In this document: positions 21,883 through 38,835 of the stretch, piece after piece
Layout: each line of letters begins with the position of its first letter
Position numbering within the stretch: the stretch's first letter is position 1
NCBI GenBank assembly: GCA_004292595.1
Contig: RDXM01000100.1
Span: 1 to 42,855 of the forward strand
DNA: 42,855 bases
From: Candidatus Kapaibacterium sp.
Lineage (GTDB): Bacteria; Bacteroidota; Ignavibacteria; Kapaibacteriales; UBA4661
Direction of reading: 5' to 3'
Program-made: the position numbers and the translations under genes
The notes under the pieces: model-generated
Told to the model about the DNA's origin: nothing
What the model saw: the letters and a program-made list of their open reading frames with translations, nothing else
The model's database searches: none

Positions 21883-22421
21883 GACTTTTTTTCAGATGAG
21901 AAAAAAACTATTAAGTAATATACGTGTTTTTTCTCGGTTATTTTTGCTCTTGCAACGAATACAATAGAGGGTGCTTGATTTACACGGTGCGAATATATGA
22001 CATTTTCATATCGTAGGAAATTACACTTATCACTAAATTTTACGAATGTGTCATGTTTTTACAAAATATTGAGAGAACATGGTGCTAAAAACAAGTATGT
22101 ATCAGTGCTGGAGGCTTTTTTACTGCTGTACAGTTGCACATTTTTTCTCTGCTCTTATGCCGTGCGGAACTTTGCTTTTTATTTACCAACAAGCTGTGAG
22201 CAATTCAACAATCATTTCACTTCTTTCTGTAAAAACTCCAAAAAAACTCCATGAAAATTCCTGAAACAATGCTATTTTAAGCGACTTTTGACCACACACA
22301 CACCACACAAAATTATCTCTCTTGATTCCGTACTCATCATCCGTATTGATTATCGGTATCGTTTGTGCAAAATTGTCTCATTGCATTTATTCTCGTATTT
22401 TTTACCTTCATTACTGTTGCT

Positions 22422-25400
22422 ATGAAGTTTTTTCCGTTGTTATCGCTGTTTGCACACCGCATATGTACGCACTTTCGTCGGCGTATTGTGTCGGGAGTTG
22501 CATTATTTCTCATGCTATGTATTGCGGGCGATTTTTTTTATTTTCACACAGATTTTTTTGCCAACGCCCTTTTTACCAGCGTTTTTGCGCAAAGTCCTGC
22601 TGCGCCTGAGCTTCAAGAGCGTGTGCGTGGCTTGAATCCGATTAAGCCTATTACGCAATATGTTTTTGATAAATGGCAAAGCTCGGAAGGCTTTCAGCAA
22701 AGCGGTGTTCGGGCGATGTGCCAAACCAAAGACGGTTACTTGTGGCTGGCAAGTTCTGAAGGCTTGGTTCGCTTCGATGGTGCGCGGTTTGTGGTCTTTG
22801 ACAAATCGAATTTGCCTCTCAAAAGCACGTCCATTACTGCGCTTGCTGAAGGCAAGAATGGCGAACTTTGGGTTGGCACAGAGTATGGCATACTCCGCAT
22901 TAGCAATGGCACATTTCAGCTTTTTACGGTGAAGGATGGCTTGCCAGATAATGTGATTCTTGCACTTGCCTATGATGCGAAAGGAAATTTGTGGATTGGC
23001 ACAGAAGCGGGCTTGGCAAAAGAAAGCAATGGCAAATTTACTGTATTCACAACAAGCAATGGCTTGACGAGTAATGTCGTTTTGTCGCTTGCAGCGGACG
23101 CAAGCGAAGGCGGGATGTGGGTTGGCACATCTGGCGGCGGTGTAAATCATGTTGTCAATGGGCAAATTCAAAGTTTTATGACGATTGATGGTCAATATCG
23201 TCCCTATACACCCGATGATGGCTTGATTGGCGATAATGTTAATGCACTTGTCGCCACAAAAAATGGTACGCTTTGGGTTGGTTCGTCGGAAGGCTTGTTT
23301 CGCATTGAAAATAATGCGCTTGTGGCATTTTACAATGCCGCAACGGGTTTAGTAAAAAACGATATTCGCGCCCTTGTGCTTGACCGCGAAAAAAGTTTGT
23401 GGATTGGTGTCAATGGCGGCGGTGTCAGTCGCATTACTGCTGATGGCACTATTTCTTCGTTTACTTCGCAGCAAGGCTTGGTAGCTGACGAAATTCTCTC
23501 GCTCTTGGAAGACCGCGAAGGTGCGCTCTGGGTCGGCACTGATGCTGGCGGGCTGGCGCGTTTCAAAGACCGCCGCTTTACGTCCTACACCTCAAAAGAT
23601 GGCTTGACAAACAATAATGTTTCGGTCGTAACCGAAGGCGCAGATGGCAGCATTTGGATGGGAACAAACGGCGGTCTGAACAAGTTTTCTTTTGGCACGT
23701 GGTCGAGTTTTTCTACGCAAAATGGCTTGCTGAATAACATCGTAACTGCGCTCTGGACCGACCGTGCGGGCAGTCTTTGGGTTGGTTCGCGCTTGGGATT
23801 ACAAAAATATAACGGCACAACATTTACAAATTTTACGAAAAATGAAGGCTTGCCCGATAATTCTGTGCAAGTGGTAATGGAAGACAAGCAAGGTTCGGTC
23901 TGGGTTGGTACCGAAGGCGGCTTGGCAAAATTTGTCAATAACCAATGGACAACGTTTACCACAAAAAACGGCTTGTCGAATAATAATATCCGCGTTTTGC
24001 TGGAGGACAACAAAGGCACACTGTGGGTGGGAACACGCGGTGGTGGCTTGTCGGCAATGGCGAATGGCGCGTTTACGAACTACACCTTGCGCGATGGCTT
24101 GGCAAGTAATTTTATCTGGTCGATCTACGAAGATGCTATCGGCGATCTATGGATTGCTACAGGTGGCGGCTTGTCGCGCTGGAAAGACGGTAAGTTTACG
24201 ACTGTCAGCACACACAACGGGCTTTTTTCGGATATTATTTTCTCGGTGCAAGAAGACGAAGCAGGCTGGTTTTGGCTGAGTTCTAATAAAGGCATTTTTC
24301 GTGTGCGCAAAAGCGAAGTGAATGAGGTTCTCGACCGCAAAGAGCGCAAGACGGTGAACTGCATTGTCTATGGCGTGATTGATGGCATGAAAACGGCAGT
24401 CTGCAATGGTGGTTCGCAGCCGTCGGTCTGGAAATCGAAGCGTGGGCAGTTTTACTACCCGACCATTAAGGGTTTGTCTATTGTTGAGCCGCTGACGATT
24501 CCGTATAATCCACTGCCGCCGCCTGTTATTTTGGAGCGCGTCGTTGCTGATGGGAAATTTCTGCGCTTGCCTGGTGTATCACTTCTTCAAACAAAAGATG
24601 CTTCCACGCAAGATGAATTTACGGATATTAACTCGGAAAAATTCGATAACAGCAATGCGAATAAAGTGATAGAACTCGCTCCTGGCATTGAAAAATTCGA
24701 GTTTCAATACACCGCAACGAGTTTGCTCATGCCAGAGCGTGTGCAGTTCAAATTTAAGCTCGAAGGATTTGATGAGGACTGGGTGAATGCTGGAACGCGC
24801 CGCACGGCTTTTTATACAAACCTTCCGCGCGGCAAAGAATATCGCTTTCAGGTGATTGCTTCCAACAACGATGGCGTATGGAACGAGGTCGGCGCAAGTA
24901 CGAGTTTTTACTTAAAGCCATACTTCTACGAAACGCCGTGGTTTTTGGGCTTGTGTGGTCTTATGGTGATTGTCGGTGGCGTGGCAGCATACATCTTGCG
25001 GGTGCGTCATGTCGAGAAGAAAAATCGTGAATTGGAGCGCATCGTTGCTGAGCGCACAGAAGAAGTGCGCAAGCAATCAAAAGAAATCGAGCGGGCAAAC
25101 GGCGAATTGAAAGAAAAAAATGAACGCTTGAAGGTATTAAGCGGCATTGGACGCGAGCTAACGTCGTCGCTCACCTTTGAAACCATCGTAACAACGGTAT
25201 ATCAGCGTTTTTATGAGGTTATGGATACGACAATGTTCAGCATCGGTATTATCCGCCCTTGGAACAATACGCTTGAATATAAAATGTCAATTGACAAAGG
25301 AATGCGTTTGCCGACGTATGAAATTCCTATGGATGATAAAAATCAGCTTCCCGTCTGGTGTATTGAGCGTGGCGAAGAGGTTATCATTCAGGATATTGAC

Positions 25401-26453
25401 CGCGATGGAAAAAACTATATTCCCGATTTCCGAAAGACCATCAACCCGCTTGAAGGCTTGATGCCAGAGATTGATAGCGAATATCCGAAATCGCTTATTT
25501 TGATGCCGCTCAAAGTGCGCAATGAGGTGATTGGTGTGCTGTCGGTGCAAAGTTTCAAGCGCGGTGCCTATACGCAGAACCACATCGAAATTGCGCGAAC
25601 GCTCTCGAATTACGTGGCGATTGCGATGTCGAACTCCGAGCAGTTTGAAGAATTACAGCGCAAACAGCGCATCATTGCTGAGTTTAACAAGCATATCACC
25701 GATAGTATCAACTACGCAAAGCGCATTCAAACAGCGATGCTTCCGGACGAAGGTCACATTTCGCAAACGCTTTCAGATTACTTCATTCTTTTCCGCCCGC
25801 GCGATGTTGTTTCTGGTGATTTTTATTGGTATTCCGAGAAGGGCGATAGAATCTACATTGCGGCGGTGGATTGTACTGGACACGGCGTACCGGGCGCATT
25901 TATGAGCTTGATTGGCAATTCGCTCTTGAACGAAGCACTGAATAATCAGCATAAACCCGAACCCGGAACGCTACTTTCCGAGCTGCATAAAGGCGTACAG
26001 CGTTCTTTGCGCCAAACCGAAACCAACAACCGCGACGGCATGGACATTACGCTCTGCATGATTGATAAATCCACACGGACGATTGAATTTGCGGGCGCAA
26101 TGAACTCGTTGTACGTTATGAAGCAAGGGGAATTTGTCGAAATGAAAGCAGATAAAAAGCCGATTGGCGGTATCGAAACCGATGAGCGTATTTTTACAAA
26201 TCACACTATTGATGTCTCCGACGCGCCCGTTGGCTCGGTGATGCTTTATTTGAGTTCCGACGGTTTCAAAGACCAATTTGGCGGCGAAAAAGGGAAGAAA
26301 TTCAGCTCGAAACGCTTTGTAGAAATTATTGGAAATGCCTATTCTAAGCCATGTTCAGAGCAAAAAGTGATGTTTGCCACCGCAATGGACACATGGATGG
26401 GAACAACCCACAAGCAGCTTGACGATATGCTCGTTATTGGTGTGCGAGTGTAA
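22422..26453 (+). CDS. Propeller-type sensor protein phosphatase (Reg_prop, Y_Y_Y, TM, GAF, PP2C/SpoIIE)
   Basis: 1343 residues from ATG 22422; an in-frame GTG at 22365 adds 19. After an N-terminal membrane/signal segment, residues 73-693 carry a dozen or more propeller strands of the form LWVGT-x-GGL ending in a DGL-type turn, the two-component-regulator propeller seen in Bacteroidota hybrid sensors. A Y_Y_Y domain (about 746-831), one membrane helix (about 839-861), a coiled coil, a GAF domain (about 906-1073) and a SpoIIE-type PP2C phosphatase (about 1093-1343) follow. Metal-binding acidic residues are in place: VVSGDFYW, AVDCTGHGVPGAFMS, LSSDGFKDQFGG and DDMLVIGV. The propeller probably senses an extracytoplasmic ligand and drives Ser/Thr dephosphorylation inside. 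The next genes are siaB- and siaC-like, making it the SiaA counterpart. Confidence 0.92.
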   Translation: MKFFPLLSLFAHRICTHFRRRIVSGVALFLMLCIAGDFFYFHTDFFANALFTSVFAQSPAAPELQERVRGLNPIKPITQYVFDKWQSSEGFQQSGVRAMCQTKDGYLWLASSEGLVRFDGARFVVFDKSNLPLKSTSITALAEGKNGELWVGTEYGILRISNGTFQLFTVKDGLPDNVILALAYDAKGNLWIGTEAGLAKESNGKFTVFTTSNGLTSNVVLSLAADASEGGMWVGTSGGGVNHVVNGQIQSFMTIDGQYRPYTPDDGLIGDNVNALVATKNGTLWVGSSEGLFRIENNALVAFYNAATGLVKNDIRALVLDREKSLWIGVNGGGVSRITADGTISSFTSQQGLVADEILSLLEDREGALWVGTDAGGLARFKDRRFTSYTSKDGLTNNNVSVVTEGADGSIWMGTNGGLNKFSFGTWSSFSTQNGLLNNIVTALWTDRAGSLWVGSRLGLQKYNGTTFTNFTKNEGLPDNSVQVVMEDKQGSVWVGTEGGLAKFVNNQWTTFTTKNGLSNNNIRVLLEDNKGTLWVGTRGGGLSAMANGAFTNYTLRDGLASNFIWSIYEDAIGDLWIATGGGLSRWKDGKFTTVSTHNGLFSDIIFSVQEDEAGWFWLSSNKGIFRVRKSEVNEVLDRKERKTVNCIVYGVIDGMKTAVCNGGSQPSVWKSKRGQFYYPTIKGLSIVEPLTIPYNPLPPPVILERVVADGKFLRLPGVSLLQTKDASTQDEFTDINSEKFDNSNANKVIELAPGIEKFEFQYTATSLLMPERVQFKFKLEGFDEDWVNAGTRRTAFYTNLPRGKEYRFQVIASNNDGVWNEVGASTSFYLKPYFYETPWFLGLCGLMVIVGGVAAYILRVRHVEKKNRELERIVAERTEEVRKQSKEIERANGELKEKNERLKVLSGIGRELTSSLTFETIVTTVYQRFYEVMDTTMFSIGIIRPWNNTLEYKMSIDKGMRLPTYEIPMDDKNQLPVWCIERGEEVIIQDIDRDGKNYIPDFRKTINPLEGLMPEIDSEYPKSLILMPLKVRNEVIGVLSVQSFKRGAYTQNHIEIARTLSNYVAIAMSNSEQFEELQRKQRIIAEFNKHITDSINYAKRIQTAMLPDEGHISQTLSDYFILFRPRDVVSGDFYWYSEKGDRIYIAAVDCTGHGVPGAFMSLIGNSLLNEALNNQHKPEPGTLLSELHKGVQRSLRQTETNNRDGMDITLCMIDKSTRTIEFAGAMNSLYVMKQGEFVEMKADKKPIGGIETDERIFTNHTIDVSDAPVGSVMLYLSSDGFKDQFGGEKGKKFSSKRFVEIIGNAYSKPCSEQKVMFATAMDTWMGTTHKQLDDMLVIGVRV

Positions 26454-26498
26454 AGGTATCTTTCTCTACAACATCCAGTAATAACGACGTGAGTACCA

Positions 26499-27041
26499 AT
26501 GACTAAGTTTGCTCTCCAATATCAACAGTATTTACCGCCCTTTCAAGCGTATGAACTTTTGTCCTACGAGGGAGTCTTTACGCATGAAGTGGTCGTGCAG
26601 TTCACCCAAGAACTGGCGGCAGTCTTAGGCGGTGAAAAGCCCAAAAAGCTCTTCATTACAACGATTGAGCTGATTCAAAATATTAAAAATTATTCTGCTG
26701 AGATGATTGACCTCGCGGGAAATTCTCCTGCTGGAGTCGGCTTTGCAGGTGTGTATTCCAATGATGATGAGTTTATCAGTGTTTCGGGCAATCTTGTAAA
26801 AACGGACCAAGTAGAGCGCATTAAAGCGCATTGTGCAAAGGTGCGTGGGCAGACGGTGCAGGAATTACGCGCTCTCTACAATGCACAGCTGAGAGAGCCG
26901 CCCCCTGAAGGCAGCAAAGGTGCGGGCTTAGGCTTTATTGATATTGCGATAAAAACGGGAGGGCAAGTAGATTTTGAATTTACACCCATCAACGACGACG
27001 TAACTTTTTTCACCATTTCTGCGTTTATTAACAAACTTTAA
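26499..27041 (+). CDS. siaB: SiaB-family Ser/Thr protein kinase
   Basis: 180 residues with a GHKL/HATPase fold as in anti-sigma kinases. The N-box is ELIQNIKNYS (Glu57, Asn61) and the glycine box GSKGAGLGFIDIAIKTGG lies near 137-154. In Pseudomonas aeruginosa, SiaB phosphorylates SiaC on a threonine and the PP2C phosphatase SiaA reverses it. Here the phosphatase gene ends 45 bases upstream and the SiaC-like gene begins 19 bases downstream, so the three are very likely one operon and one switch. Short spacings and shared strand support cotranslation. It has no signal peptide or membrane helix; a cytoplasmic kinase is expected. Family recognition is confident, the pathway by analogy. Confidence 0.88.
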   Translation: MTKFALQYQQYLPPFQAYELLSYEGVFTHEVVVQFTQELAAVLGGEKPKKLFITTIELIQNIKNYSAEMIDLAGNSPAGVGFAGVYSNDDEFISVSGNLVKTDQVERIKAHCAKVRGQTVQELRALYNAQLREPPPEGSKGAGLGFIDIAIKTGGQVDFEFTPINDDVTFFTISAFINKL

Positions 27042-27060
27042 TCTCAATTTGTATTCTACT

Positions 27061-27441
27061 ATGGAACCTTTACATCTCCTCAAAACAACAGAAACCCCAT
27101 CTGTCCATATGGACATGAAAACAGGAATTGTTGAACTCGAAGGCAATTCGTATCCCGAAAATGCGTTTGAATTTTATCAGCAAATTTTTGATTGGATAGA
27201 CGGCTATTTTGCTACGGGCGCAGACCAGATGAAAGCTATTTTTCGCTTGAATTATTTTAATACCAGTTCTGCGAAATGTATGCTCAATTTTATGACGCTC
27301 CTGCAAAAATATCATGCCCGAGAAAAGAGTATTTCCATTGAATGGCATTACGAAGCCGACGACGACGATATGCTAGAAATCGGCAAAGCCTTTTCCGTTG
27401 ATTTTACCATGCCCTTCCGCATTCTTTCCTACGTGGACTAA
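27061..27441 (+). CDS. siaC: SiaC-family (DUF1987) regulatory phosphoprotein
   Basis: 126 residues from ATG 27061; an in-frame start at 27049 adds four residues. It is a small STAS-like protein with the family segment FRLNYFNTSSAKCM. The threonine in NTSS is residue 68, the same number as the Thr phosphorylated by SiaB in Pseudomonas aeruginosa. In that species unphosphorylated SiaC binds and activates the diguanylate cyclase SiaD, controlling aggregation and biofilm. No diguanylate cyclase gene is adjacent here, so the output partner is unknown. Other conserved-looking parts are GIVELEGNSYPENAFEFY and the acidic HYEADDDDMLEIGK. It is directly downstream of siaB. Confidence 0.9.
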   Translation: MEPLHLLKTTETPSVHMDMKTGIVELEGNSYPENAFEFYQQIFDWIDGYFATGADQMKAIFRLNYFNTSSAKCMLNFMTLLQKYHAREKSISIEWHYEADDDDMLEIGKAFSVDFTMPFRILSYVD

Positions 27442-27537
27442 AGGAAGGATGAAGTCTGAAATATGAGGGATGAAGCGGTGTTCAAGATGTTGCTCCGCTT
27501 GTGTCCATTGTTCTTCTTTCTTTTTTTCTCCTTTGTT

Positions 27538-29151
27538 ATGCCCTTTAGCCTTCGAGAACGTCTCGCCCAAAGCATTATGCCGCGCCTTGCGGAGGAAGAA
27601 TATTTTACGAATGAAAATGTGCGAAAGAGCTTGCACACGCTCATCCGTGAGGAGGGAATTGGCGGCGTGTGCGTCTTTGGGGGCGATGCTCTGAAAACCG
27701 CACAAATGCTGACAGAATTGCAGCACGTCGCAGCGCGGAGCTTTCGACCGCCTTTGCTTGTGAGTGCTGACTTCGAGCATGGCGTAGCAATGCGCCTGAC
27801 GGGCGGAACAGCCTTCCCACACGCAATGGCACTGGGTTCTGCCGATGACGTTGCCATGACCGAGCGTGTTGCCCACGCCATTGCGCTCGAAGCAAAAGCG
27901 ATCGGTGTGCATTGGAATTTCGCTCCTGTCGGCGATGTAAACTGCAATCCCAGCAATCCCATCATCAATATTCGCTCCTTTGGCGAAACGCCCGACCTCG
28001 CTGCGCGGCACGTGAGCGCGTACATTCGCGGCACACAACGCGCACACATCCTCGCTTCGGTCAAGCATTTTCCTGGACACGGCGACACCGCAACCGATTC
28101 CCACCTCGCTTTGCCAAGTCTTCCTTTCGAGCGCACTCGCCTTGAACACCTCGAATTTATCCCGTTTCGCGCCGCCGTCGCCGAAGGTGTGCGCTCGGTC
28201 ATGGTGGGGCATCTTGCCGTGCCGAGTTTGGATGACTCTGGCAAACCCGCTTCGCTCTCGGAGCAAGTAATGACGCGGTGTTTGCGCGAGGAACTTGGTT
28301 TTACGGGAATCATCGTAACGGATGCTTTGGATATGCACGCCATTACGCGAAACTTCAGCAATGAAGCGGCTTCGGTGGGTGCGTACCGCTCTGGCGCAGA
28401 TGTGGTGCTGCTTCCGCCGAATCCGCTCGCTGCGCTGGATGCGTTGGAACAAGCGGTGCTGCGCGGAGAAATTACAGAAACGAAGGTGAATGCGTCTGCT
28501 CGTGCGGTCTTGGAGGCAAAACAGTGGTGCGAATTGCTGAAACTGCCCGCAGAATGGACGTTTGAAACATTGGAAAAAGAAGCGATTGAGCGCATACGCC
28601 GCCGCGCCGAAGATGTGCCACAAATAAGCAAGCAAGATCAAAGCCTACTCGCGCTGGATGCCATGAAAAACGCGCTGCGCTGGTTCGGCGAGCGCGACGA
28701 ACTTCAGCCCTTGCTCAAATTTACCCAAATTGCAGGGTTCGCGCTCTTGCCCGATGTGGAAACCGTGCAAGGAAATCTCAGTGTTTCTGCGGCAACCAAC
28801 TTTTTTCGGTATCTTGGTCAGAATTATCCCAAAGATTGCGATTTTGCCTTCATTGATGAAAACATCAGCAATGATGAGCTTTCCGAGCTTATTTTGGCAA
28901 CGCACGAAGCAGAGGCGATTGTTTTTGCAATTTTCGTGCGTCCCGTCGCCGAGCAAGGTTCTATCAGCCTTTCGGAGCGATTTCACGAAATTGCACGAAT
29001 GCTTGCTGGTGAAAAACCAAGCGTTGCAGTGCTGTTTGGTAATCCATACTTACGCGAAACATTCCCTGCAAACGCCTATTTATGCGCCTTCTCGCATTCC
29101 GAACCCGCACTCGGCGCAGCCGCGTTTGAGCTTGTGCAGCGTAAGGAATAA
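27538..29151 (+). CDS. nagZ: Glycoside hydrolase family 3 protein, beta-N-acetylhexosaminidase (NagZ-like)
   Basis: 537 residues from ATG 27538. It contains the N-acetylglucosaminidase signature KHFPGHGDTATDSH (from residue 176) and the nucleophile Asp262 in IVTDALDMHAI. The His of the KHFPGHGD loop serves as the unusual acid/base in NagZ enzymes, which cut GlcNAc from muropeptides during cell wall recycling. A second domain of about 200 residues follows the barrel, as in longer Bacteroidota members. An in-frame ATG at 27463 would add a hydrophobic N-terminus (FFFLFFSFV), but that region begins inside a short repeat shared with 31803-31844, so I prefer the internal start and a cytoplasmic location; with the longer start the protein could be membrane-anchored. 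It follows the siaC-like gene by about 100 bases. Confidence 0.85.
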   Translation: MPFSLRERLAQSIMPRLAEEEYFTNENVRKSLHTLIREEGIGGVCVFGGDALKTAQMLTELQHVAARSFRPPLLVSADFEHGVAMRLTGGTAFPHAMALGSADDVAMTERVAHAIALEAKAIGVHWNFAPVGDVNCNPSNPIINIRSFGETPDLAARHVSAYIRGTQRAHILASVKHFPGHGDTATDSHLALPSLPFERTRLEHLEFIPFRAAVAEGVRSVMVGHLAVPSLDDSGKPASLSEQVMTRCLREELGFTGIIVTDALDMHAITRNFSNEAASVGAYRSGADVVLLPPNPLAALDALEQAVLRGEITETKVNASARAVLEAKQWCELLKLPAEWTFETLEKEAIERIRRRAEDVPQISKQDQSLLALDAMKNALRWFGERDELQPLLKFTQIAGFALLPDVETVQGNLSVSAATNFFRYLGQNYPKDCDFAFIDENISNDELSELILATHEAEAIVFAIFVRPVAEQGSISLSERFHEIARMLAGEKPSVAVLFGNPYLRETFPANAYLCAFSHSEPALGAAAFELVQRKE

Positions 29152-29286: not shown

Positions 29287-30072
29287 ATGAAACTTCGTCA
29301 ATCCATACTTCCTGCATTATTGCTTGCGTTGCTGCTCTCTCTCGGCAGCGAGCGGCTTGCTGCGCAGGGATTCGATTGGCAATACTCTTCGCGCCTTCCA
29401 ACGGGCTATCCTGTGCTGTTTGTGGGCGTTCTGGGCAACGCTGCGCAAAGCCTGCACACGACTACAATGCGCGTGAGCGAGAGCTTGCCGCGTGTACTGG
29501 ATTGTGGGTGCGCATTCAGTACCGCCCGAAGCATTGATTGGTCGGCTGGAATTGTCGGTGAATACTGGCTTCCTGAGTCGAATATCGCTGTGTATGTCGC
29601 GCTTCTTGCCGAGCAGCGCAATGCGGTTTTTCAATCCGATTCCGTTGTATTTGCCCGTAATCCCAATCTGTATCCCACAAATTTTGTTTCACGTTATACC
29701 TTAACAACACAGGTCTGGAATACGAGTATTGAAGCGGGTTTTCGGGGAAAATTTGCTCCTTTGCCGTTTTTTGTTGGCGCAGCCGTACAGGGCGCATATA
29801 CGCTTGTTGATAGTGCGAGGTCTTTGCGTTTGGTCGAAGATGCCAACGGTACGGTGAAGGAAGGCTTGCCCACCAATTTTATTACATTCAATCCTGTGAA
29901 TTTCAGCGCGAAAGCCTTTATTGGTGCAGATATTCCACTTGCAACCAGTATGTATGCCTCTCCGTCGCTGTTTATCGCGTATCCGTTTGGCAATTTAATT
30001 ACGGGAAGTGCCTCCTGGACACGTCTCAGTTTTGGTCTGCAAGTTGCTTTCATGCTGGGTTTCTTGCCGTGA
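29287..30072 (+). CDS. Exported protein, probable outer-membrane beta-barrel, function unknown
   Basis: 261 residues. A clear signal peptide (hydrophobic ALLLALLLSLG, cleavage after LAAQ at residue 27) leads to a mature part rich in alternating polar and hydrophobic residues, with segments such as SAGIVGEYWLP, AVYVALLAE, NTSIEAGFRGKFAPLPFFVG and LSFGLQVAFMLGFLP. The last ends in hydrophobic residues near the C-terminus, as barrel strands do. This pattern fits small outer-membrane beta-barrel proteins of the Bacteroidota/Chlorobiota, but I recognise no named family. DCGC near residue 77 could form a disulfide. The ECF sigma gene starts 97 bases downstream on the same strand; a functional link is possible but unproven. 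A family A repeat lies directly upstream. Confidence 0.7.
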   Translation: MKLRQSILPALLLALLLSLGSERLAAQGFDWQYSSRLPTGYPVLFVGVLGNAAQSLHTTTMRVSESLPRVLDCGCAFSTARSIDWSAGIVGEYWLPESNIAVYVALLAEQRNAVFQSDSVVFARNPNLYPTNFVSRYTLTTQVWNTSIEAGFRGKFAPLPFFVGAAVQGAYTLVDSARSLRLVEDANGTVKEGLPTNFITFNPVNFSAKAFIGADIPLATSMYASPSLFIAYPFGNLITGSASWTRLSFGLQVAFMLGFLP

Positions 30073-30169
30073 GTTTTTTTGCTCAATTTCTTTACCCAGC
30101 TTTTGTCAACCTTTCTCGCCCTTCCACCGTCAAAGAAGTATTGCCCAACGAAAAACGCTGTCATTGCTC

Positions 30170-30781
30170 ATGCTTGCATCACATTTGCCCGAAACATCAT
30201 TTGAAAAAACAGCCGTTCTCAGCACAGAAGCGCATTTGTTGCAACGCTTGAAAGCAAGTGATAATGCGGCATTTCGGGAATTTGTGCGCTTGTACCAACG
30301 CCGTTTATTCACGCTCGCCTTTCAGCTTTTGGGCAACCGCGAAGATGCGGAAGACCTTGTGCAAGAAGCATTTATCAAGGCGCATGGTGCACTGGCGCAG
30401 TTTCAAGGCGCGTCGTCGTTGTACACGTGGCTACACCGAATCGCAGTGAATTTGTACATTGATTACACGCGCAGTGGACGCTATCGCGCCATTCAGCAAT
30501 GGGACGACACCCGCGACGACAACGCCGATGCCGCGCAATGGCACACACCGCCGACAACACCAGAAGCCAGTTTCCAAGCGGTATTGCAGCAAGAACACAT
30601 CGAAAATGCCTTGCAGAAATTGACGGCGCAGCAACGCGCAGTTTTTGTTTTACGGCATTATCAAGATTTGTCGCTGGAAGAGGTTGCCGAAGAATTGCAC
30701 GTTACCGTTGGGACGGTGAAAACCTTGCTTTTCCGCGCTGTGCGAGAATTGCGCGAACATTTAGCGGTATATCGTTACTAA
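30170..30781 (+). CDS. ECF-type RNA polymerase sigma factor
   Basis: 203 residues from ATG 30170; the reading frame extends upstream to 30008, but that part overlaps the preceding gene and looks unlike a sigma factor. Region 2 (about 28-95) has FVRLYQRRLFTLAFQLLGN, then EDAEDLVQEAFIKAH and LYTWLHRIAVNLYIDYTR. Region 4 (about 145-195) has LQKLTAQQRAVFVLRHYQDL, then LEEVAEELHVTVGTVKTLLFRAVRELRE, a helix-turn-helix for -35 recognition. Regions 1 and 3 are absent, as usual for ECF sigmas. The next gene downstream encodes a protein with a single membrane helix, the arrangement expected of a sigma/anti-sigma pair, although a family A repeat separates them. Confidence 0.93.
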   Translation: MLASHLPETSFEKTAVLSTEAHLLQRLKASDNAAFREFVRLYQRRLFTLAFQLLGNREDAEDLVQEAFIKAHGALAQFQGASSLYTWLHRIAVNLYIDYTRSGRYRAIQQWDDTRDDNADAAQWHTPPTTPEASFQAVLQQEHIENALQKLTAQQRAVFVLRHYQDLSLEEVAEELHVTVGTVKTLLFRAVRELREHLAVYRY

Positions 30782-30792
30782 AATCAGGCTTC

Positions 30793-30869
30793 AGTTGCAC
30801 AGACATTCTTGTCTGTGTTTTCGCCTGAAAACCGCACCAATACTCACAGACAAGAATGTCTGTGCCACT
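30793..30869. repeat. Family A palindromic repeat
   Basis: Left arm AGTTGCACAGACATTCTTGT plus CTGTG, spacer TTTTCGCCTGAAAACCGCAC plus CAATACT, right arm CACAGACAAGAATGTCTGTG plus CCACT. It separates the ECF sigma gene from the putative anti-sigma gene, so a transcript through both would carry two strong hairpins. Confidence 0.9.
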
Positions 30870-30922
30870 TATTGATTTTTTATTGGGTACATAGACCCAG
30901 TTATTATTGTAGAGTAGATACC

Positions 30923-31795
30923 ATGAATACCGCATCACATCAAGAACCATCGGAAGGAATGAGAATGTATGCTGAAGCACAACGCCTCACCGGGCAAGCA
31001 TTCACCGATGGTTTGGTCAATTTGCTCGCACAAGACCAACGTCGCCTTGCTGAACTTTGGAGTATTTTTCCTGACCTCAAGCACGAATACGACGCAATGC
31101 AAGAGACAGTGCGCCGCATGAATACGTTGCGTGATTCGGCTTCTTTGCATTCTGAGCAAGACTGGCATTTGCTTGAAAACCGCATCGTTGCTCGCGTTGA
31201 AGAAAAAAATACTACTCTGAACAATGTTACCAAATCGCATAATCTCACGCTTATCCAACGCCTCAAAAGCAGTACCAATGCTTCCTTTGGAGTAATATCC
31301 TTTGGAACGATGCTGCGCATAGCGGCGGTGTTTTTGGTTGGTATTGCTGTTGGACGCTTTATGCCATTATGGCACAATGGCTCAAATGCCGCACAACATC
31401 AGGCGTTTTTGCTGGCTTCTGCACAAAATGCGTCTGCACAAAAAACGAATGAGCGAGCAGAAATGCGTATGTACTTGAAAGATGCGCATTTGCTGATGCT
31501 TGGTGTTATGGCAATGAACGCCGAATGCGGCTTGGCAAACCCGCATACACTCGCCTCGCAGCGTGAGCGATGTGTGGAGCTGTTGGCGCGTTCTTCCAGC
31601 GTACAAGCGCGTTTCACGCCTGCCGAGCGTCAGCGCATGGCGCACGTGATGGGGGAGATTGAGTCTGCGCTTGCCGAATTAGCCGACGTGCAGCCCGCAT
31701 CCTGCAATGCCACACAAATTCGTGAGCTTCAAGCCCGCACCGATGACGCGCTCTGCGAGGTTTCAAGCGTCTTGCGAGAAAGCGCGATGCAATAA
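30923..31795 (+). CDS. Single-pass membrane protein, candidate anti-sigma partner
   Basis: 290 residues from ATG 30923; the frame runs upstream to 30809 but that part is translated family A repeat. The first 125 residues are charged and helical (MRMYAEAQRLTG, then AQDQRRLAELWSIF), one membrane helix (MLRIAAVFLVGIAVGRF) lies near 129-150, and the remaining 140 residues are helical with several cysteines and would lie outside the membrane. This topology and the position behind an ECF sigma gene fit an anti-sigma factor, in which the cytoplasmic part holds the sigma factor. No zinc-binding HxxxCxxC motif is present, so it is not a classical ZAS-type. I do not recognise the family; the role is inferred from context only. 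Confidence 0.6.
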   Translation: MNTASHQEPSEGMRMYAEAQRLTGQAFTDGLVNLLAQDQRRLAELWSIFPDLKHEYDAMQETVRRMNTLRDSASLHSEQDWHLLENRIVARVEEKNTTLNNVTKSHNLTLIQRLKSSTNASFGVISFGTMLRIAAVFLVGIAVGRFMPLWHNGSNAAQHQAFLLASAQNASAQKTNERAEMRMYLKDAHLLMLGVMAMNAECGLANPHTLASQRERCVELLARSSSVQARFTPAERQRMAHVMGEIESALAELADVQPASCNATQIRELQARTDDALCEVSSVLRESAMQ

Positions 31796-32922: not shown

Positions 32923-34830
32923 TCACCCCAGCGCACGGATATTCGTTCCAATCAGATAATACGTTTTCATATCGCCCTTGCCTTTGACCTTGATTTCGCC
33001 ACGTTCTTCAAAAAGAAAACGGGGTGTTTGCTCATTGGCAAGGGGAAGTTCGTGCAACAGATGATAAACGGCATGGCTAAGATGAATTTTTCCCGCTTCT
33101 CCGTGCGATTCCATACGCGATGCTGTGTTCACGGTATCGCCCCAGAGGTCGTAGGTGAATTTCTTTTTGCCAATCACGCCCGCCACCACCGCCCCAACAT
33201 GAATACCAATGCGGATTTGCAGGATGTTTGCCGTTTTATGCGGGTCATCGGCGTTAGCAGAAAACGAGCCATATTTTTTCATCACCGTCATCATATCCAA
33301 GGCAAAGCGGGCGATGCGCTCGGCGTGGTCGGAAGTGTGTATCGGTACGCCACTGACAACCATATACGCATCGCCAATGGTTTTAATTTTTTCCAAATCA
33401 TACTTTTCTGCAAGCGCGTCGAAATCAGAAAAAATAGCATCCAAGAGATTGACAATATCGGCGGCACTGCTGCGCGAGGAAATATCGGTAAAGCCGACAA
33501 TATCCGCAAACAGCACCGTTGCTTCGTTGAAGCTCTCGGCAATGGTAGTTTCGCCACGTTTCATGCGCTCAGCAATAACCGACGGCAGCACGTTCAGCAG
33601 TAATTTATCGGAGCGTTCGCGCTCTTGTTCTACTTTGCGATTTTGCTCTTTCAATGCCGTATTTGCTTGAAGGCGTTGTTTATTAAAGCGAATGAGCATG
33701 GCTAGTAAGCCCACAAGCAGTAATACTCCCGCCAGCAAACCATAGAGAACAAACGACTGCATTCGGCTGGCATCGTTGAGAGATTGAATTTCTGCCTCGC
33801 GTTTTTCGGCTTCGTATTCGGTGCGCAAAAGGCTTAATTGCTTGTTTGTTTCGTCGTTATCCAGCGAATCCTTGAGGCGCAAAAAGCGTGTTTGCCAAGA
33901 AAATGCTTCTTGAAAATTACCCGTTTTGGCGTGTGCGTCGTAGAGAATTTTTAGCGCATCTTTCACCTCGCGCATCGCTCCTGCGCCCTCTGCCGCGCTC
34001 AAGGCTTCCTTCGCATATTCCAGTGCTGTTTTGCCATTGCCAATCTCCGCATAGACCGTTGCTGCGCCAATCAAGCTCGCTGCCAAGCCTTTTTTATGCG
34101 ATAATTCTCGTTCAATGGTAATGGATTTTTGGTAATTTTCCAGCGATTTGTCGTATTGCTTCATCTGGCGCAAAATATTCGCTAAACCGTTCAAAGGCGT
34201 GATGAGACCTTCTTTATCGCCAAGTTCGGTGCGCAAGCGCAGGGACTCTTGATAATTTTCGATTGCCTGCTCGCGCATTCCCTGTTTTTCATAGACCTCG
34301 CCCATGCGTAGATGCGCATATCCCGCACCGCGCCTATCTCCCAAGCGTTGGAACGACGCAAGCGACCTCAGTGTATTTTCGAGCGACAGCGGATATTGCT
34401 TTTGGATTTGATACAAATTTCCAATGTTATTGTAGGCGTAGGCAATTTCTTTTTCGTTGTGGTTTTTCTCTGCCAATTCCAACGCTTTCAGGTAGTAGGA
34501 CATTGCTTGTGGATAATTGCTCGTGTTGCGGTAAATTACACCAATGTAATTATACGAGCGAATACGTTCTGCTTCCCAGCCCAGCTTTTCTGCCAGTTTT
34601 GCGGCTTGCTGCCCGTATTCCAATGCCCGCAGCGTCTGCACACCACGAAACTCCCACGCCAGCGCATTCAAAAGCCGCACCCGCGCAGAATCGTCGGTTG
34701 CAGCCAAAAGCGCACGTTGCAAACTATCGGTAGAACTTTTCGCTTTTTGGTCTTGAGCAAATATGGGTAAAAATGTAGAGACAAGCATTAGTGCGGCTTG
34801 CAGAGAATATTGCTTTAACAAGAATTGCAT
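32923..34830 (-). CDS. TPR-domain class III adenylate cyclase, membrane-anchored
   Basis: 635 residues from ATG 34830, which opens a signal peptide ending near FAQ at residue 26; an upstream in-frame ATG at 34947 is rejected because the added part reads through a repeat-like hairpin. Residues 30-330 are tetratricopeptide repeats (for example AYAYNNIGNLYQIQKQYPLS), expected outside the membrane. One helix (FVLYGLLAGVLLLVGLLAML) near 350-370 and a coiled coil join them to the catalytic domain (about 430-620). Metal ligands are D443 (FADIVGF) and D487 (IGDAYM). K483 and D561 (YDLWGD) are the adenine-selecting pair, so ATP rather than GTP is the substrate. It is a likely receptor-cyclase for cAMP, built like the second copy at 36813-38762. 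Confidence 0.92.
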   Translation of the reverse strand: MQFLLKQYSLQAALMLVSTFLPIFAQDQKAKSSTDSLQRALLAATDDSARVRLLNALAWEFRGVQTLRALEYGQQAAKLAEKLGWEAERIRSYNYIGVIYRNTSNYPQAMSYYLKALELAEKNHNEKEIAYAYNNIGNLYQIQKQYPLSLENTLRSLASFQRLGDRRGAGYAHLRMGEVYEKQGMREQAIENYQESLRLRTELGDKEGLITPLNGLANILRQMKQYDKSLENYQKSITIERELSHKKGLAASLIGAATVYAEIGNGKTALEYAKEALSAAEGAGAMREVKDALKILYDAHAKTGNFQEAFSWQTRFLRLKDSLDNDETNKQLSLLRTEYEAEKREAEIQSLNDASRMQSFVLYGLLAGVLLLVGLLAMLIRFNKQRLQANTALKEQNRKVEQERERSDKLLLNVLPSVIAERMKRGETTIAESFNEATVLFADIVGFTDISSRSSAADIVNLLDAIFSDFDALAEKYDLEKIKTIGDAYMVVSGVPIHTSDHAERIARFALDMMTVMKKYGSFSANADDPHKTANILQIRIGIHVGAVVAGVIGKKKFTYDLWGDTVNTASRMESHGEAGKIHLSHAVYHLLHELPLANEQTPRFLFEERGEIKVKGKGDMKTYYLIGTNIRALG

Positions 34831-34907
34831 AAAAAGGTAAATTCCATGAGAAGTGATGCGGTCTAAAGAAGTTTTTGAAAATAATTCCAACACTGAACAA
34901 CGCTCTT

Positions 34908-34939
34908 CCCGTCCTACGGTTTTGTAACCGTAGAACGGG
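34908..34939. repeat. Hairpin repeat
   Basis: CCCGT-C-CTACGGTT pairs with AACCGTAG-A-ACGGG around a short loop, with one mismatch. The neighbouring stretch 34966-34985 (TACCGTGAAAACCGTTCTAT) matches 10003-10022 downstream of the giant gene at 18 of 20 positions, so this is a dispersed sequence rather than part of the cyclase gene. Confidence 0.6.
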
Positions 34940-34981
34940 TTTCCCACAACGCTCTTTCAGACATTACCGTGAAAACCGTTC

Positions 34982-35084
34982 TATACTAAAAAAGGTTTGG
35001 TGCTTTAGATGTAGTCCACCTCAAAGGTGGACTACATCTCATTTCCTTCACTTTTTGATGCAATTTTTACCCGTTTTTAGTATA
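34982..35084. repeat. Family B MITE-like palindromic repeat, copy 2
   Basis: 103 bases with ends TATACTAAAAAAGG and the reverse complement of TATACTAAAAACGG, and the central 14-bp stem GATGTAGTCCACCT/loop CAA at 35008-35038. It matches copy 1 at 2104-2208 along its whole length with scattered changes. Confidence 0.85.
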
Positions 35085-35085
35085 T

Positions 35086-35127
35086 CGCTCTGAAGCAATC
35101 GCTCTGAAGCAATCGCTCTGAAGCAAT
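35086..35127. repeat. 14-bp tandem repeat, three units
   Basis: CGCTCTGAAGCAAT is repeated three times without mismatch, directly beside the end of the family B element and 19 bases from the stop codon of the histidine kinase gene. Perfect identity suggests a recent slippage expansion. Confidence 0.9.
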
Positions 35128-35146
35128 ACGACGAGAAAACGTATCC

Positions 35147-36763
35147 CTACGCCTCCGAAGGCAATGCGACAAGGAACGTCGCGCCTTTCCCTAATTCGGA
35201 TTCACACCACACGCGCCCCTGCATGGCTTCTGCCATTTTTTTCACAATCGAAAGCCCCAAACCCGTCGAATGCTCGCCGCCCGTCGGACGCGCCGAGAGC
35301 CGCATAAACTTCCCGAAGAGCTTTGCTTGGTCCTCCGCCGATAATCCTGGTCCTTCGTCGCGGACGTACAGAACCAGTTCTTGTTTGCCCTCTGGTGCAT
35401 TGATGTACGACGTGCGGTATTCCGCTCCCACCCAGACATTTTTGCCACGTGGCGAATACTTTACCGCATTAGAAACGATATTATCCATGATTTGCCCAAA
35501 TGCCAGCGTATCAGCATAGACCATGGCTGGTTCGGGTAATGCCTCAAGATGGACGCTAATTTCCTTTTCTTTGCCGCGCCCATCATACATATTCACTACA
35601 TTATCAAGAATAACATGAACACTGAATCGGTGCAAAGAAAACTGTTGTCCGCCACTCTCTAAAGCATTTACATCCAATAAGTTACGAATAAGTTCAAACA
35701 TTTTTTGCGAGCTTTGGAAAATTGTCTTCGCAATGACGGGGATGTTTTCTGGAGCAGCAAGATTGCTCATCAGCAGCTCAGAAAGCCCTTGAATCCCTGT
35801 GAGTGGGTTTTTGAGGTCGTGCGCAGCAATGCCTAAAAATTCGTCTTTTTCTTTGCTAAGTTCTTGCAAGGTAAAATTTTGCGCCTGAATCTGGTCGTTG
35901 GCGCGAGAAAGCTCCATCGTGCGCAATTCGAGTTGTGCGTTTGCCGCTTCAACAAAATCGTTGGTGAGTTCTAATTGCTTATTTGCCGTTAAAATCTCTT
36001 CCTGAGCATCTTCGAGGCGATTCATCATGGCATTAAAGGCTTGGGTCAGAACGCCTGGCTCGCTTTGTGCCATAATGCCGTGTACTTCTGGTGCGCGGAT
36101 GTGCAAGTCTCCCTCCGAAACGCGGTCTGTTACGTGGTACAGCCTCCGAAGCGGCTTTGTCAGCATTTGTGCAATCACAACCGATATTCCCCCCGCAAAC
36201 AACGCTAATATCACCCCCCAGACCAGCGAAACAATGCGAGAACGAGCAATATTTGCATTCATAACTGTTGGTTTTAAGCCAATCAACACCTCGCCGATAC
36301 GGTCATTTCCCAACAGTGTTCGGATAGGCGCAGCCACCGTAACCTCACCAGTACGTTCAATGAACGTGCGCACCGAATCAAGCGGCATAAGCTGTGCGCC
36401 CGCCTGCAATGCCTCTGGTGCAAATGCGAAATTATGCGTGTAGAGCGTATCGCCATTGTTATTGCGAATAATCAGCCACGAGAAATCTTGCAACCCCTCC
36501 ACACCATGCGCTGCGCGAGCAAGGAGCTTTTTATCGGCAAAGGTAACGCCGTCGCTGCTGCCCGCCGCTACCAAAAGCCCGATAGAACGGGCTTGCGCAA
36601 GCATCAGCTCGCGTCCGCTTGTTTGCTGCCACCACGAACTAAAAAAAAATGCCAGAAGCGACGAAAAAAGAACCAGCACTGCCATTGCAGCACCTATCTG
36701 TGCGCCCATAGAGTAGCGTAACGAAAATTGATTCCGTGAAGGCGATGGTATGTGTATATCCAT
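35147..36763 (-). CDS. Membrane sensor histidine kinase
   Basis: 538 residues from ATG 36763 (MDIHIPSPSRN); an in-frame ATG at 36811 would extend almost to the upstream cyclase stop. A first membrane helix (about 23-45), an extracytoplasmic region of about 120 residues resembling the CHASE8-like region of the chemoreceptor at 95-1954, and a second helix (SLVWGVILALFAGGISVVIA) lead to a HAMP domain (TKPLRRLYHVTDRVSEGDL). A coiled coil is followed by HisKA, with phospho-acceptor His315 in AAHDLKNPLTG, and an HATPase domain with DNIVSNAVKYSPRG, DEGPGLS and STGLGLSIVKKMAEAM. No response regulator is adjacent. It lies 49 bases behind the second adenylate cyclase on the same strand and may be cotranscribed, linking phosphorelay and cAMP signalling; that is inferred. 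Confidence 0.92.
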   Translation of the reverse strand: MDIHIPSPSRNQFSLRYSMGAQIGAAMAVLVLFSSLLAFFFSSWWQQTSGRELMLAQARSIGLLVAAGSSDGVTFADKKLLARAAHGVEGLQDFSWLIIRNNNGDTLYTHNFAFAPEALQAGAQLMPLDSVRTFIERTGEVTVAAPIRTLLGNDRIGEVLIGLKPTVMNANIARSRIVSLVWGVILALFAGGISVVIAQMLTKPLRRLYHVTDRVSEGDLHIRAPEVHGIMAQSEPGVLTQAFNAMMNRLEDAQEEILTANKQLELTNDFVEAANAQLELRTMELSRANDQIQAQNFTLQELSKEKDEFLGIAAHDLKNPLTGIQGLSELLMSNLAAPENIPVIAKTIFQSSQKMFELIRNLLDVNALESGGQQFSLHRFSVHVILDNVVNMYDGRGKEKEISVHLEALPEPAMVYADTLAFGQIMDNIVSNAVKYSPRGKNVWVGAEYRTSYINAPEGKQELVLYVRDEGPGLSAEDQAKLFGKFMRLSARPTGGEHSTGLGLSIVKKMAEAMQGRVWCESELGKGATFLVALPSEA

Positions 36764-36812
36764 GATGTGAATACCTGCATTGCAGAGAATGAGAACAAAA
36801 AATGAGAACAAA

Positions 36813-38762
36813 TCAAGAATTGGTGCGCTCTTCTGGTGCGTGAAGTATTTCTTTCAACAAATAAGCGCGGGTGCGAAGATTGCCCTTCAAATGAAGCTCG
36901 CCACGCTCTTCAAAAATACATTTTTTATGCAGTATTTCATAGCTTGCTTCCGAGCATTGTATTTCCCCCGCTTTGGCGTGTGATTGCAAGCGCGATGCGA
37001 TGTTCACGGTTTCGCCCCAGAGGTCAAACGAAAACTTTTTTTTGCCAATCACACCCGCCACCACTGCGCCGGTGTGAATGCCGATGCGCAAATGTATCGG
37101 CAAAATCTCGCCAGAGGGCGCATCAACACTATAATTTCCGACAATACGCTGAATATCAAGAGCAAACCGCGCAACGCGCTCTGCATGGTCGCTGCACGGC
37201 ACAGGTGCGCCCGCCACTGCTAAATACGCATCGCCAATGGTTTTAATTTTCTCCAAACCGTTGCGCTCTGCCAGAGCATCGAAATCGCTGAAGACCGCAT
37301 CGAGCAAGGTAACAAGCTCTTCGGGGGAAATCTGCGACGCAAGCGACGTAAAACCAACAATATCAGCAAATAGCACCGTAACTTCGCTAAAGCGTTCTGC
37401 TATGCGCTGTTCGCCTGCTTGCATCCGCCGTGCAATCGGCGCAGGAAGGACGTTTTGCAAGAGCTGTTCGATAAGCGCATTTTTCATGCTTAATTCTCCA
37501 TTCGCCTCTTGCAGAGCCGCTTCCGAGCGTTGCTTCAGGCGAAAGCGATTATAGAGCAGCAGCACACCAAGCAAACTCAGTGCCACTGTTGCCATCAAAC
37601 TATTGCGCAGCAAGGATTGACGCTGTTTCTCGGCGGTCAGCAAGGCAATTTCTTTCCCGCGCAGTTCCGCATCGTACTTGGCATTGAACTGTGCAGACTT
37701 CGTATCTGCTTCTTCGGAAAAGAGCGAATCCTTCAATGCCTCATAGCGGCGGATGTTGTAGTACGCACCAGAAAAATTGCCGATACGCTCTTCAATCTGC
37801 GCCAGAAGTTCGTAACAATCGCGCAATTCCTTGCGAGCATTCAAGCTCTGTGCCAGTACCATTGCTGCGTCGAGCGACCGCAGTGCCTCCTCATTGCGCT
37901 TCAAGGCAACAAGAGCCTTTGCCGCGCCAAAGTGCGCATCCACTAAGCCTTTATGATTATTATTTGTGCTGTACAATGCGATTGCTTGCTTTTGCAAATT
38001 GAGTGCGCCTTCATGGTCGCCTGTTTCCTGCAAAAGCGTTCCGAGCGACGTGTAGGTCAGCGCAAAACCATTTGTATTATTCGAGCCTTCCAAAAGCCTG
38101 AGTGCCGCTTGGTGCATGGCTTGGGCGGAATCGTATCGTTTTTGATTGCGATAGACAATCCCGATATTGTTGTATGCCGCAGCCATACTGCTTTTGGCAG
38201 GAATACGCTGATACACCGACAAGGCTTGGTGCAAGTATTTAAGCGCGTCGTCGTACTTTTTTTGGGTGGAATAAATCAAGCCGATATTGTTCAAGGAACT
38301 CCCAACCCCGCGTGTATCCTGAATTTCACGGCGCAATGCCAGCGATTTTTGGTAATATTCCAACGCAATATCGTACCAGCCTTGATAAAAATATGCCACA
38401 CCAATCGTGTTCAACGCATTGGCAATACCGCGCTTAAAATCTGCTCGCTCGGCAATTCCTAACGCCTCAAAAGCATATGTGCGAGCTTCTTTGGGTGCAG
38501 TTGCCCAGAGTTCACGAGCAAGGTCTATCAGTGCCAGAACTCGCGTAGAATCTGGTGCGTTAGCAGAAGCATAGTCTTGGACAAGTGCTTTCAAGCTATC
38601 AAGTTTTGACGACGATTTTGACGACGATTTTGAGGAAGAAGCAGGTGAAGCAAGTATTGGTAGGTCTTTCGAGGTTTGTGCCTGAATACGAGGAATGAAG
38701 CCGCTCAACGAGCCGCTCCCGAACATGAGCAACCAGCACAACATCGTAAAGCAAGATTTCAT
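36813..38762 (-). CDS. TPR-domain class III adenylate cyclase, second copy
   Basis: 649 residues from ATG 38762, which begins a signal peptide (CFTMLCWLLMFGSGSLSGF, cleavage after IQAQ near 29). A Ser/Lys-rich linker (SSSKSSSKSSSK, encoded by a 12-bp tandem repeat) follows, then TPR repeats to about 340 (YYQKSLALRREIQDTRGVGS, AYNNIGIVYRNQKRYDSAQA). A membrane helix (SLMATVALSLLGVLLLYNRF), a coiled coil and the cyclase domain complete it. The cyclase has FADIVGFTS, then EKIKTIGDAYLAVAG with the Lys and second metal Asp, and SFDLWGETVNIASRL with the adenine-selecting Asp, all matching an active adenylate cyclase. Architecture and sequence mark it as a paralogue of 32923-34830. The histidine kinase gene follows 49 bases after its stop. 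Confidence 0.92.
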   Translation of the reverse strand: MKSCFTMLCWLLMFGSGSLSGFIPRIQAQTSKDLPILASPASSSKSSSKSSSKLDSLKALVQDYASANAPDSTRVLALIDLARELWATAPKEARTYAFEALGIAERADFKRGIANALNTIGVAYFYQGWYDIALEYYQKSLALRREIQDTRGVGSSLNNIGLIYSTQKKYDDALKYLHQALSVYQRIPAKSSMAAAYNNIGIVYRNQKRYDSAQAMHQAALRLLEGSNNTNGFALTYTSLGTLLQETGDHEGALNLQKQAIALYSTNNNHKGLVDAHFGAAKALVALKRNEEALRSLDAAMVLAQSLNARKELRDCYELLAQIEERIGNFSGAYYNIRRYEALKDSLFSEEADTKSAQFNAKYDAELRGKEIALLTAEKQRQSLLRNSLMATVALSLLGVLLLYNRFRLKQRSEAALQEANGELSMKNALIEQLLQNVLPAPIARRMQAGEQRIAERFSEVTVLFADIVGFTSLASQISPEELVTLLDAVFSDFDALAERNGLEKIKTIGDAYLAVAGAPVPCSDHAERVARFALDIQRIVGNYSVDAPSGEILPIHLRIGIHTGAVVAGVIGKKKFSFDLWGETVNIASRLQSHAKAGEIQCSEASYEILHKKCIFEERGELHLKGNLRTRAYLLKEILHAPEERTNS

Positions 38763-38835
38763 GCGCTTTTCCAAGTAATAAACGCCGAAAATCAAGGAAA
38801 AAGAGTATATTTTTGAGACCAACTTTTACATCTTT

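Follow-up and report, generated by a model that had tools for sequence, protein, structure and literature searches.

What does a SiaABC-type partner switch act on where no SiaD is present? The question is raised by a stretch of 42,855 nucleotides from Candidatus Kapaibacterium sp. (contig RDXM01000100.1; hereafter the window), which holds at 22365-27441 on the forward strand three co-directional genes with short gaps between them, encoding a SiaA-like PP2C phosphatase, a SiaB-family kinase and SiaC (Table 1). Judged by its sequence, this trio forms a partner switch of the SiaABC type that lacks SiaD and has a different input. The comparisons reported here make it a well supported claim, at the level of sequence, that the part of SiaD on which SiaC docks, a helical stalk, is present on other enzymes, and the window switch would most likely control one histidine kinase encoded elsewhere in the genome.

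A SiaABC-type switch with a propeller input

The genes for a PP2C phosphatase, a GHKL kinase and SiaC also stand together in Pseudomonas aeruginosa, where Thr68 of SiaC lies in an NTSS context (PMC7647112; PMC8457831; PMC12834913) and where SiaD, a pentamer in its inactive state, becomes an active dimer on binding SiaC (PMC8457831). An initial annotation of the window, made from the nucleotide letters alone, had recognised adjacent genes for a PP2C phosphatase, a SiaB-type kinase and a SiaC/DUF1987 protein, a reading borne out by the matches to SpoIIE, NF038262 and PF09345. It had also placed a threonine 68 in the NTSS context, and this is found as YFNTSS when residues are counted from the ATG at 27061 (the same threonine is numbered 72 if siaC starts at the TTG at 27049, the start chosen by the open reading frame listing). 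The narrower equivalog models of NCBIfam are not reached: the SiaA model covers amino acids 1092-1362 of the phosphatase (E 1.9e-58) with 198.5 bits against a cut-off of 700, while the kinase and SiaC obtain 62.8 of the 225 and 117 of the 150 bits needed for the SiaB and SiaC models, respectively. As to solved structures, the window SiaB aligns with PDB chain 6kko_A (E 1.4e-9), chain 6kko_C of that entry being SiaC, and the window SiaC matches the P. aeruginosa DUF1987 chain 6k4f_U over nearly its full length (E 1e-26).

The motifs of the PP2C signature are present in the phosphatase as GDFYW (1151), DCTGHG (1169) and, near the C-terminus, DDM (1353). Pfam assigns Reg_prop, Y_Y_Y, GAF and SpoIIE to this protein, in agreement with the propeller, Y_Y_Y and GAF domains proposed initially, and finds no HAMP domain, the input that characterises the phosphatase of the SiaABCD system. 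The propeller-Y_Y_Y-GAF input and the lack of SiaD distinguish the window switch from SiaABCD of P. aeruginosa. The combination of a propeller-PP2C protein with SiaB and SiaC, which the initial annotation suggested looking for in related genomes, occurs elsewhere too (recognised by similarity to the window propeller) and is not unique to the window. The siaA-like frame opens at 22365, upstream of the 22422 given initially, and this position is the start of the frame rather than a settled start codon. Scans around the operon gave numbers near chance for both promoters (15 against a shuffled mean of 10.0, standard deviation 3.7) and terminators (6 against a shuffled mean of 11.2, standard deviation 4.4).

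Absence of SiaD and other sia loci of the genome

The assembly of the window's genome (4.6 Mb, 199 contigs, 96.5% complete) contains four SiaC, three SiaB, ten SpoIIE domains, 19 class III cyclase domains and one GGDEF match; class III cyclases are abundant in this genome and GGDEF is scarce. As had been stated from the letters alone, no GGDEF gene adjoins siaABC in the window. SiaD, that is, a stalk joined to GGDEF, was also looked for in the whole assembly and is absent from it: the sole GGDEF match is a 1043-amino-acid GAF-GAF-GGDEF-like protein whose signature position reads GRYLGNIVGVCL, without the signature and without a match to the stalk profiles described below. A canonical SiaABCD system with its siaD hidden in an assembly gap is highly improbable; an assembly of this completeness and number of contigs would leave room for it, but two genus relatives with the same siaABC (L070, L074) show no adjoining stalk- or GGDEF-like gene, and the other stalk proteins of the genus relatives are a cyclase and histidine kinases (GGDEF as such was not searched there). 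The expectation that input and output would both differ from the studied case stands as regards the input, a propeller, and the lack of SiaD; candidate outputs exist even so, since stalks of the SiaC-docking kind are carried by different enzymes encoded in the genome.

A second siaABC is found on contig C147, where the phosphatase is of CHASE8-HAMP-PP2C type and a class III cyclase gene follows siaC, and a third on contig C80, with a second Reg_prop-PP2C phosphatase. On contig C3 (L019:4484-5935), a SiaC gene without SiaB adjoins a CheW-receiver (CheV-like) gene, and a close relative of this SiaC is encoded in genus member G275 (L071). A lone propeller-GAF-PP2C gene, assigned by similarity, is located on contig C145 (L022:184-4041), with its end 184 bases away from the start of the contig; the genes of its partners may be on the far side of the gap.

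A SiaD-type docking stalk on other enzymes

In the crystal structure of SiaC with SiaD, the stalk residues of SiaD touching SiaC include K77, V78, R80, I81, S82, D83 and Q86, and S82 and Q86 bond to Thr68 of SiaC (PMC8457831). The N-terminal stalk of the C147 class III cyclase contains KLTRIGDMAQ, a SiaD-type SiaC-binding motif, and its helical part reads RQATKLTRIGDMAQRKL; when the 19 class III cyclase loci fetched were scanned with a regular expression, the motif was found in this gene only. A stalk-profile search of the assembly recognised three proteins only: the C147 cyclase, which is the best match, and two histidine kinases of 320 and 329 amino acids, encoded on contigs C76 and C105, respectively. 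No stalk gene was found in the window.

The likeness of these stalks to SiaD required profiles to be detected, as a single-sequence search of the PDB with the C147 stalk gave no SiaD match. With a profile of 14 stalks, SiaD (7e6g_A) was the top match among 177,635 PDB sequences (E 5e-4; next 0.015). Since three of these 14 rows came from GGDEF proteins, a second profile of 22 stalks was made without any, and it again placed 7e6g_A first among the 177,635 sequences (E 2e-4; next 0.17), with a match spanning both SiaC-binding motifs. Within the stalk, taken as 85 residues in the C147, C76 and C105 proteins, two columns are invariant, a D and a Q. The SiaD stalk of P. aeruginosa resembles the stalks of three proteins in the window's genome, with the difference that the latter are carried by a class III cyclase and histidine kinases. 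The new stalks apparently hold one motif copy instead of the two of SiaD, which suggests that two SiaC molecules, rather than four, would bind per dimer. Weak profile matches in G111 (2e-4), G283:C83 (4e-4) and G315 (9.7e-4) were not accepted as stalk proteins in the argument; those of G111 and G315 remain counted in the stalk tallies.

The Bacteroidota sample, assigned to this phylum from the titles of records at matching loci, comprised 296 genomes, 18 of which have SiaC at a total of 30 places (26 outside the window's genome and four within), and at 17 of these 30 places a stalk gene lies at most 2.1 kb from siaC. By Pfam, the domain following the stalk at Bacteroidota siaC loci is a class III cyclase, a histidine kinase, a GGDEF or a SpoIIE PP2C domain; in other stalk proteins of this phylum the stalk is joined to a membrane-like segment that matches no family convincingly, or stands alone. 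In Acidobacteriota the stalk is also found on Hanks kinases and on a receiver-bearing hybrid kinase. On a plasmid of Azospirillum (A. ramasamyi, from cow dung according to its record), siaA, siaB and siaC are followed by two stalk genes, one for a histidine kinase and one for a GGDEF protein. Binding of a stalk to unphosphorylated SiaC has been described for SiaD of P. aeruginosa only (PMC8457831), and stalks on outputs other than diguanylate cyclase were not found reported in the open-access literature searched.

Two arrangements were observed beside these. Stand-alone stalk proteins of 85-101 amino acids are encoded directly 3' of siaC at three loci (L080:8709-8975, L081:8506-8808, L082:8631-8885), and the gene after the stalk gene of L080 and L082 is for a protein with AAA+ modules, three or two in number. 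At L078:8967-17843, siaC is followed by the gene for a stalk-PP2C protein and by three more genes with PP2C similarity, possibly a phosphatase cascade.

Co-occurrence of SiaC and stalks

Of 247 genomes of Acidobacteriota, the phylum of G296, nine have SiaC; the same nine have a stalk and none of the remaining 238 does, and each of the 12 SiaC genes lies no more than about 0.8 kb from a stalk gene. There is some overlap with the profile: one of its rows came from G296, and three of the nine genomes are closely related to another row, L134. Without these four genomes, the association amounts to 5/5 against 0/238 (Fisher 1.5e-10, kinship not corrected). With a profile built from Bacteroidota rows only, stalks were likewise detected in every one of the nine genomes, at E 5e-7 or better (it was not run on the other 238). 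In the Bacteroidota sample, stalk matches are present in 15 of the 296 genomes, namely in 13 of the 18 with SiaC and in two of the other 278, a partly circular comparison in which the overlap of 13/18 is largely built in because 12 genomes supplied the profile. Named SiaC loci were examined as the best 80 of 578: a stalk is nearby in ten of these 80, and the rest are mostly from Bacteroidota, many of them Bacteroidales. The stalk-less named loci consist of SiaB-SiaC, often with no phosphatase in the fetched stretch.

Candidate partners of the window switch

The two stalk histidine kinases of the genome have no sensor domain by Pfam and no siaC in their fetched surroundings. The C76 kinase gene lies 110 bases after the gene for a 1190-amino-acid Reg_prop sensor histidine kinase, a neighbour that is absent beside the C76 relatives in G275 and G283, within the short stretches examined. 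Among genus members (n=3), a window-type SiaC and a C76-type kinase (86% and 53% identical) occur together in all three, and a C3-type SiaC together with a C105-type kinase (80% identical) in the same two of the three. The hypothesis that the window switch pairs in trans with the C76 kinase fits this co-distribution. For a stalk kinase adjacent to siaC at L130, a predicted model (mean predicted local distance difference test score 73, four-row alignment) shows one helix, 48-144, passing through the motif and the invariant His127; with the helix continuous through both, SiaC docking could set the kinase dimer and its register.

The position of the window SiaC within its family was evaluated in a quick tree of few columns, a careful tree search being unfinished; L130, L131, L133 and L148 (repeats of sample loci), L224 (a repeat of L198) and one row identical or below 100 residues were left out. 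The window SiaC falls in a clade of seven rows, with the C80 and C3 SiaC and their relatives, none of which has an adjacent stalk, and this clade is nested in a clade of 45 rows, 34 of them stalk-linked. The residues Y65, N67, T68 and S69 are retained in the window SiaC, as are the stalk-type Y31 and D114. Cross-talk of the window SiaC to the C147 class III cyclase, by which both operons would feed one cyclic AMP or cyclic GMP output with different sensors, seems to us quite unlikely: it would agree with the rank of this cyclase as best stalk match of the genome and with the presence of 19 class III cyclase domains against no intact GGDEF, but C147 owns a siaABC, and the C147 and window SiaC stand in separate clades.

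Several observations weigh against a stalk protein, and the C76 kinase in particular, as the partner of the window SiaC. No stalk gene lies beside siaC in the window or in its relatives L070, L074 and L147. At contact position 110, which is E or D in 39/39 stalk-linked SiaC of the alignment, the seven-row clade has A, T or G (A in the window SiaC), and position 79 of the window SiaC is T. The C76 pairing is drawn from three genomes, and for the C80 SiaC, which shares the clade of the window SiaC, there is no matching extra kinase. At a broader scale, a stalk is present in one of the six Bacteroidota SiaC genomes outside the first profile (Fisher p 0.06), and genome G280 has a stalk class III cyclase (L110:1450-2385) and no SiaC match. 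Finally, a whole-genome stalk search was given 40 of the 80 named loci, including two positives known beforehand and L133, a repeat of sample genome G109, and 36 of the 38 further SiaC genomes without an adjacent stalk showed no stalk anywhere at E 1e-3.

Stalk-less SiaC proteins

Stalk-less and stalk-linked SiaC differ at the positions that contact the stalk (kinship was not removed from either set). Among 81 stalk-less SiaC, R29 is found in 69, I31 in 68, K79 in 63 and I114 in 69, whereas among 39 stalk-linked SiaC position 29 is D/E in 25, position 31 is Y/F in 33, position 79 is D/E in 23 and position 114 is D in 21. This points to a second class of SiaC that probably has a partner other than the stalk. 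A gene for a TerB-ABC-ABC2 transporter of about 1025 amino acids often stands beside siaC at stalk-less SiaB-SiaC loci of Bacteroidota (e.g. L149:3211-6288); a match was obtained at 34 of 83 stalk-less loci (in L128 and L175 over the ABC part only) and at two of 39 stalk-linked loci, both over the ABC part only. This transporter is a possible second output of SiaC.

It is unlikely, in our estimation, that the window SiaC has likewise given up the stalk in favour of an unrelated output, as is probably the case in many of the stalk-less SiaB-SiaC pairs of Bacteroidota. The lack of an adjacent stalk, the loss of E110 throughout the window clade, the stalk-free genomes of the whole-genome search and the transporter gene beside siaC at many stalk-less loci would be explained in this way; the window clade, however, keeps Y/F31 and mostly D/E114, unlike the stalk-less SiaC with mostly I at both positions, the window SiaC nests among stalk-linked SiaC, and no TerB-ABC2 gene is found at the window.

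Neighbouring genes and other features of the window

The glycoside hydrolase family 3 gene begins 21 bases past siaC and is possibly on the same transcript; a gene of this family is also located 3' of siaC in the genus relatives L070 and L074. It was dropped as a part of the switch and is regarded as a mere neighbour. Further downstream, a gene for an extracytoplasmic function (ECF) sigma factor lies 2.6 kb from the switch. A classical anti-sigma switch, in which SiaC would act on an anti-sigma factor, tied for example to this sigma factor, is very improbable: anti-sigma antagonists are the proteins that SiaC most resembles in structure (PMC7647112), but the gene following that of the sigma factor may encode its own anti-sigma factor, and the reported partners of SiaC in P. 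aeruginosa are SiaB and SiaD (PMC7647112). The two class III cyclases of the window were dropped as candidate outputs, as they have no stalk motif and no match to the stalk profile.

Table 1. Coordinates of the switch genes and other features in the window
Feature	Position	Strand	Description and matches
siaA-like phosphatase gene	22365..26453	+	1362 amino acids; N-terminal hydrophobic segment, Reg_prop repeats, Y_Y_Y, transmembrane-like segment, GAF, SpoIIE-type PP2C
Y_Y_Y domain, amino acids 790-849	24732..24911	+	3' of the Reg_prop repeats; PF07495, E 5.5e-14
Transmembrane-like segment, amino acids 860-878	24942..24998	+	hydropathy window alone, no transmembrane predictor
GAF domain, amino acids 939-1090	25179..25634	+	PF01590, 3e-8; PF13185, 2.5e-9
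SpoIIE/PP2C phosphatase domain, amino acids 1160-1362	25842..26450	+	PF07228, 1.6e-15
siaB-like kinase gene	26499..27041	+	180 amino acids; NF038262, 125.7 bits (cut-off 85); PF19788, 1.7e-31
siaC	27061..27441	+	126 amino acids; ATG start, TTG at 27049 possible; PF09345, 1.2e-40, 138.4 bits (cut-off 24.5)
Thr68 codon, predicted phosphosite	27262..27264	+	context YFNTSS, counted from ATG 27061
Glycoside hydrolase family 3 gene	27463..29151	+	PF00933, 6e-83; NF003740, 147 bits, below cut-off 207
ECF sigma factor gene	30008-30781		2.6 kb downstream of the switch
Gene after the ECF sigma factor gene	30809-31795		no Pfam family; may encode the cognate anti-sigma factor
Leucine-rich repeat protein	2613-9980		2455 amino acids; ASH-like stretch, weak Por_Secre_tail match; perhaps secreted type IX cargo
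Two tetratricopeptide repeat class III cyclases on either side of a HAMP histidine kinase	32923-38822		cyclases at 32923-34947 and 36813-38822

Proposed mechanism and implications

In the mechanism proposed here, a signal at the propeller would alter the PP2C activity of the SiaA-like phosphatase, which together with the GHKL kinase SiaB would set the phosphorylation state of Thr68 of SiaC. Unphosphorylated SiaC would dock on the conserved helical stalk and set the dimer and helix register of the output domain behind it. The stalk carriers of this genome are the class III cyclase of the C147 operon and the C76 and C105 histidine kinases, which are soluble proteins, with no diguanylate cyclase among them, and the window switch would act in trans on one of these kinases, C76 being the best candidate. 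Taken as a whole, from SiaA/SiaB through SiaC Thr68 and stalk docking to a histidine kinase in trans, this is an explanation that we are inclined, by a small degree, to accept.

Similar principles have been described in other systems. In RsbT-RsbU, a dimeric output is activated through a linker helix on which a partner protein acts, the partner there being RsbT, which is not of the SiaC family (PMC12143880); a term search of the main text of that paper gave no mention of SiaA, SiaC, SiaD or adenylyl cyclase. The HptB-HsbR-HsbA-HsbD and BgrSTUWV-BgrR systems share with SiaABC the control of a signalling enzyme by a phosphorylated antagonist, but their antagonists are STAS-domain proteins and their outputs diguanylate cyclases (PMC7647112; PMC8457831).

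In the parts of the literature covered, SiaC has been studied solely as the activator of one diguanylate cyclase. The wider proposal is that SiaC would be a general plug-in regulator, its stalk having been combined during evolution with five or more classes of catalytic output (diguanylate cyclase, class III cyclase, histidine kinase, PP2C and Hanks kinase) and occurring in membrane and stalk-only proteins as well, and that the propeller SiaABC of the window would control an unlinked histidine kinase beside a second propeller sensor kinase; we consider this proposal evenly poised between being right and wrong. With a shared docking stalk, the same switch could be wired to any dimeric output bearing this handle. 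If this is true, a Ser/Thr partner switch can drive cyclic di-GMP, cyclic AMP or cyclic GMP, histidine phosphorelay, or further Ser/Thr phosphorylation. The stalk would then predict SiaC partners from sequence, orphan histidine kinases and cyclases would become testable SiaC targets, and the docking stalk may serve as a modular part for synthetic signalling.

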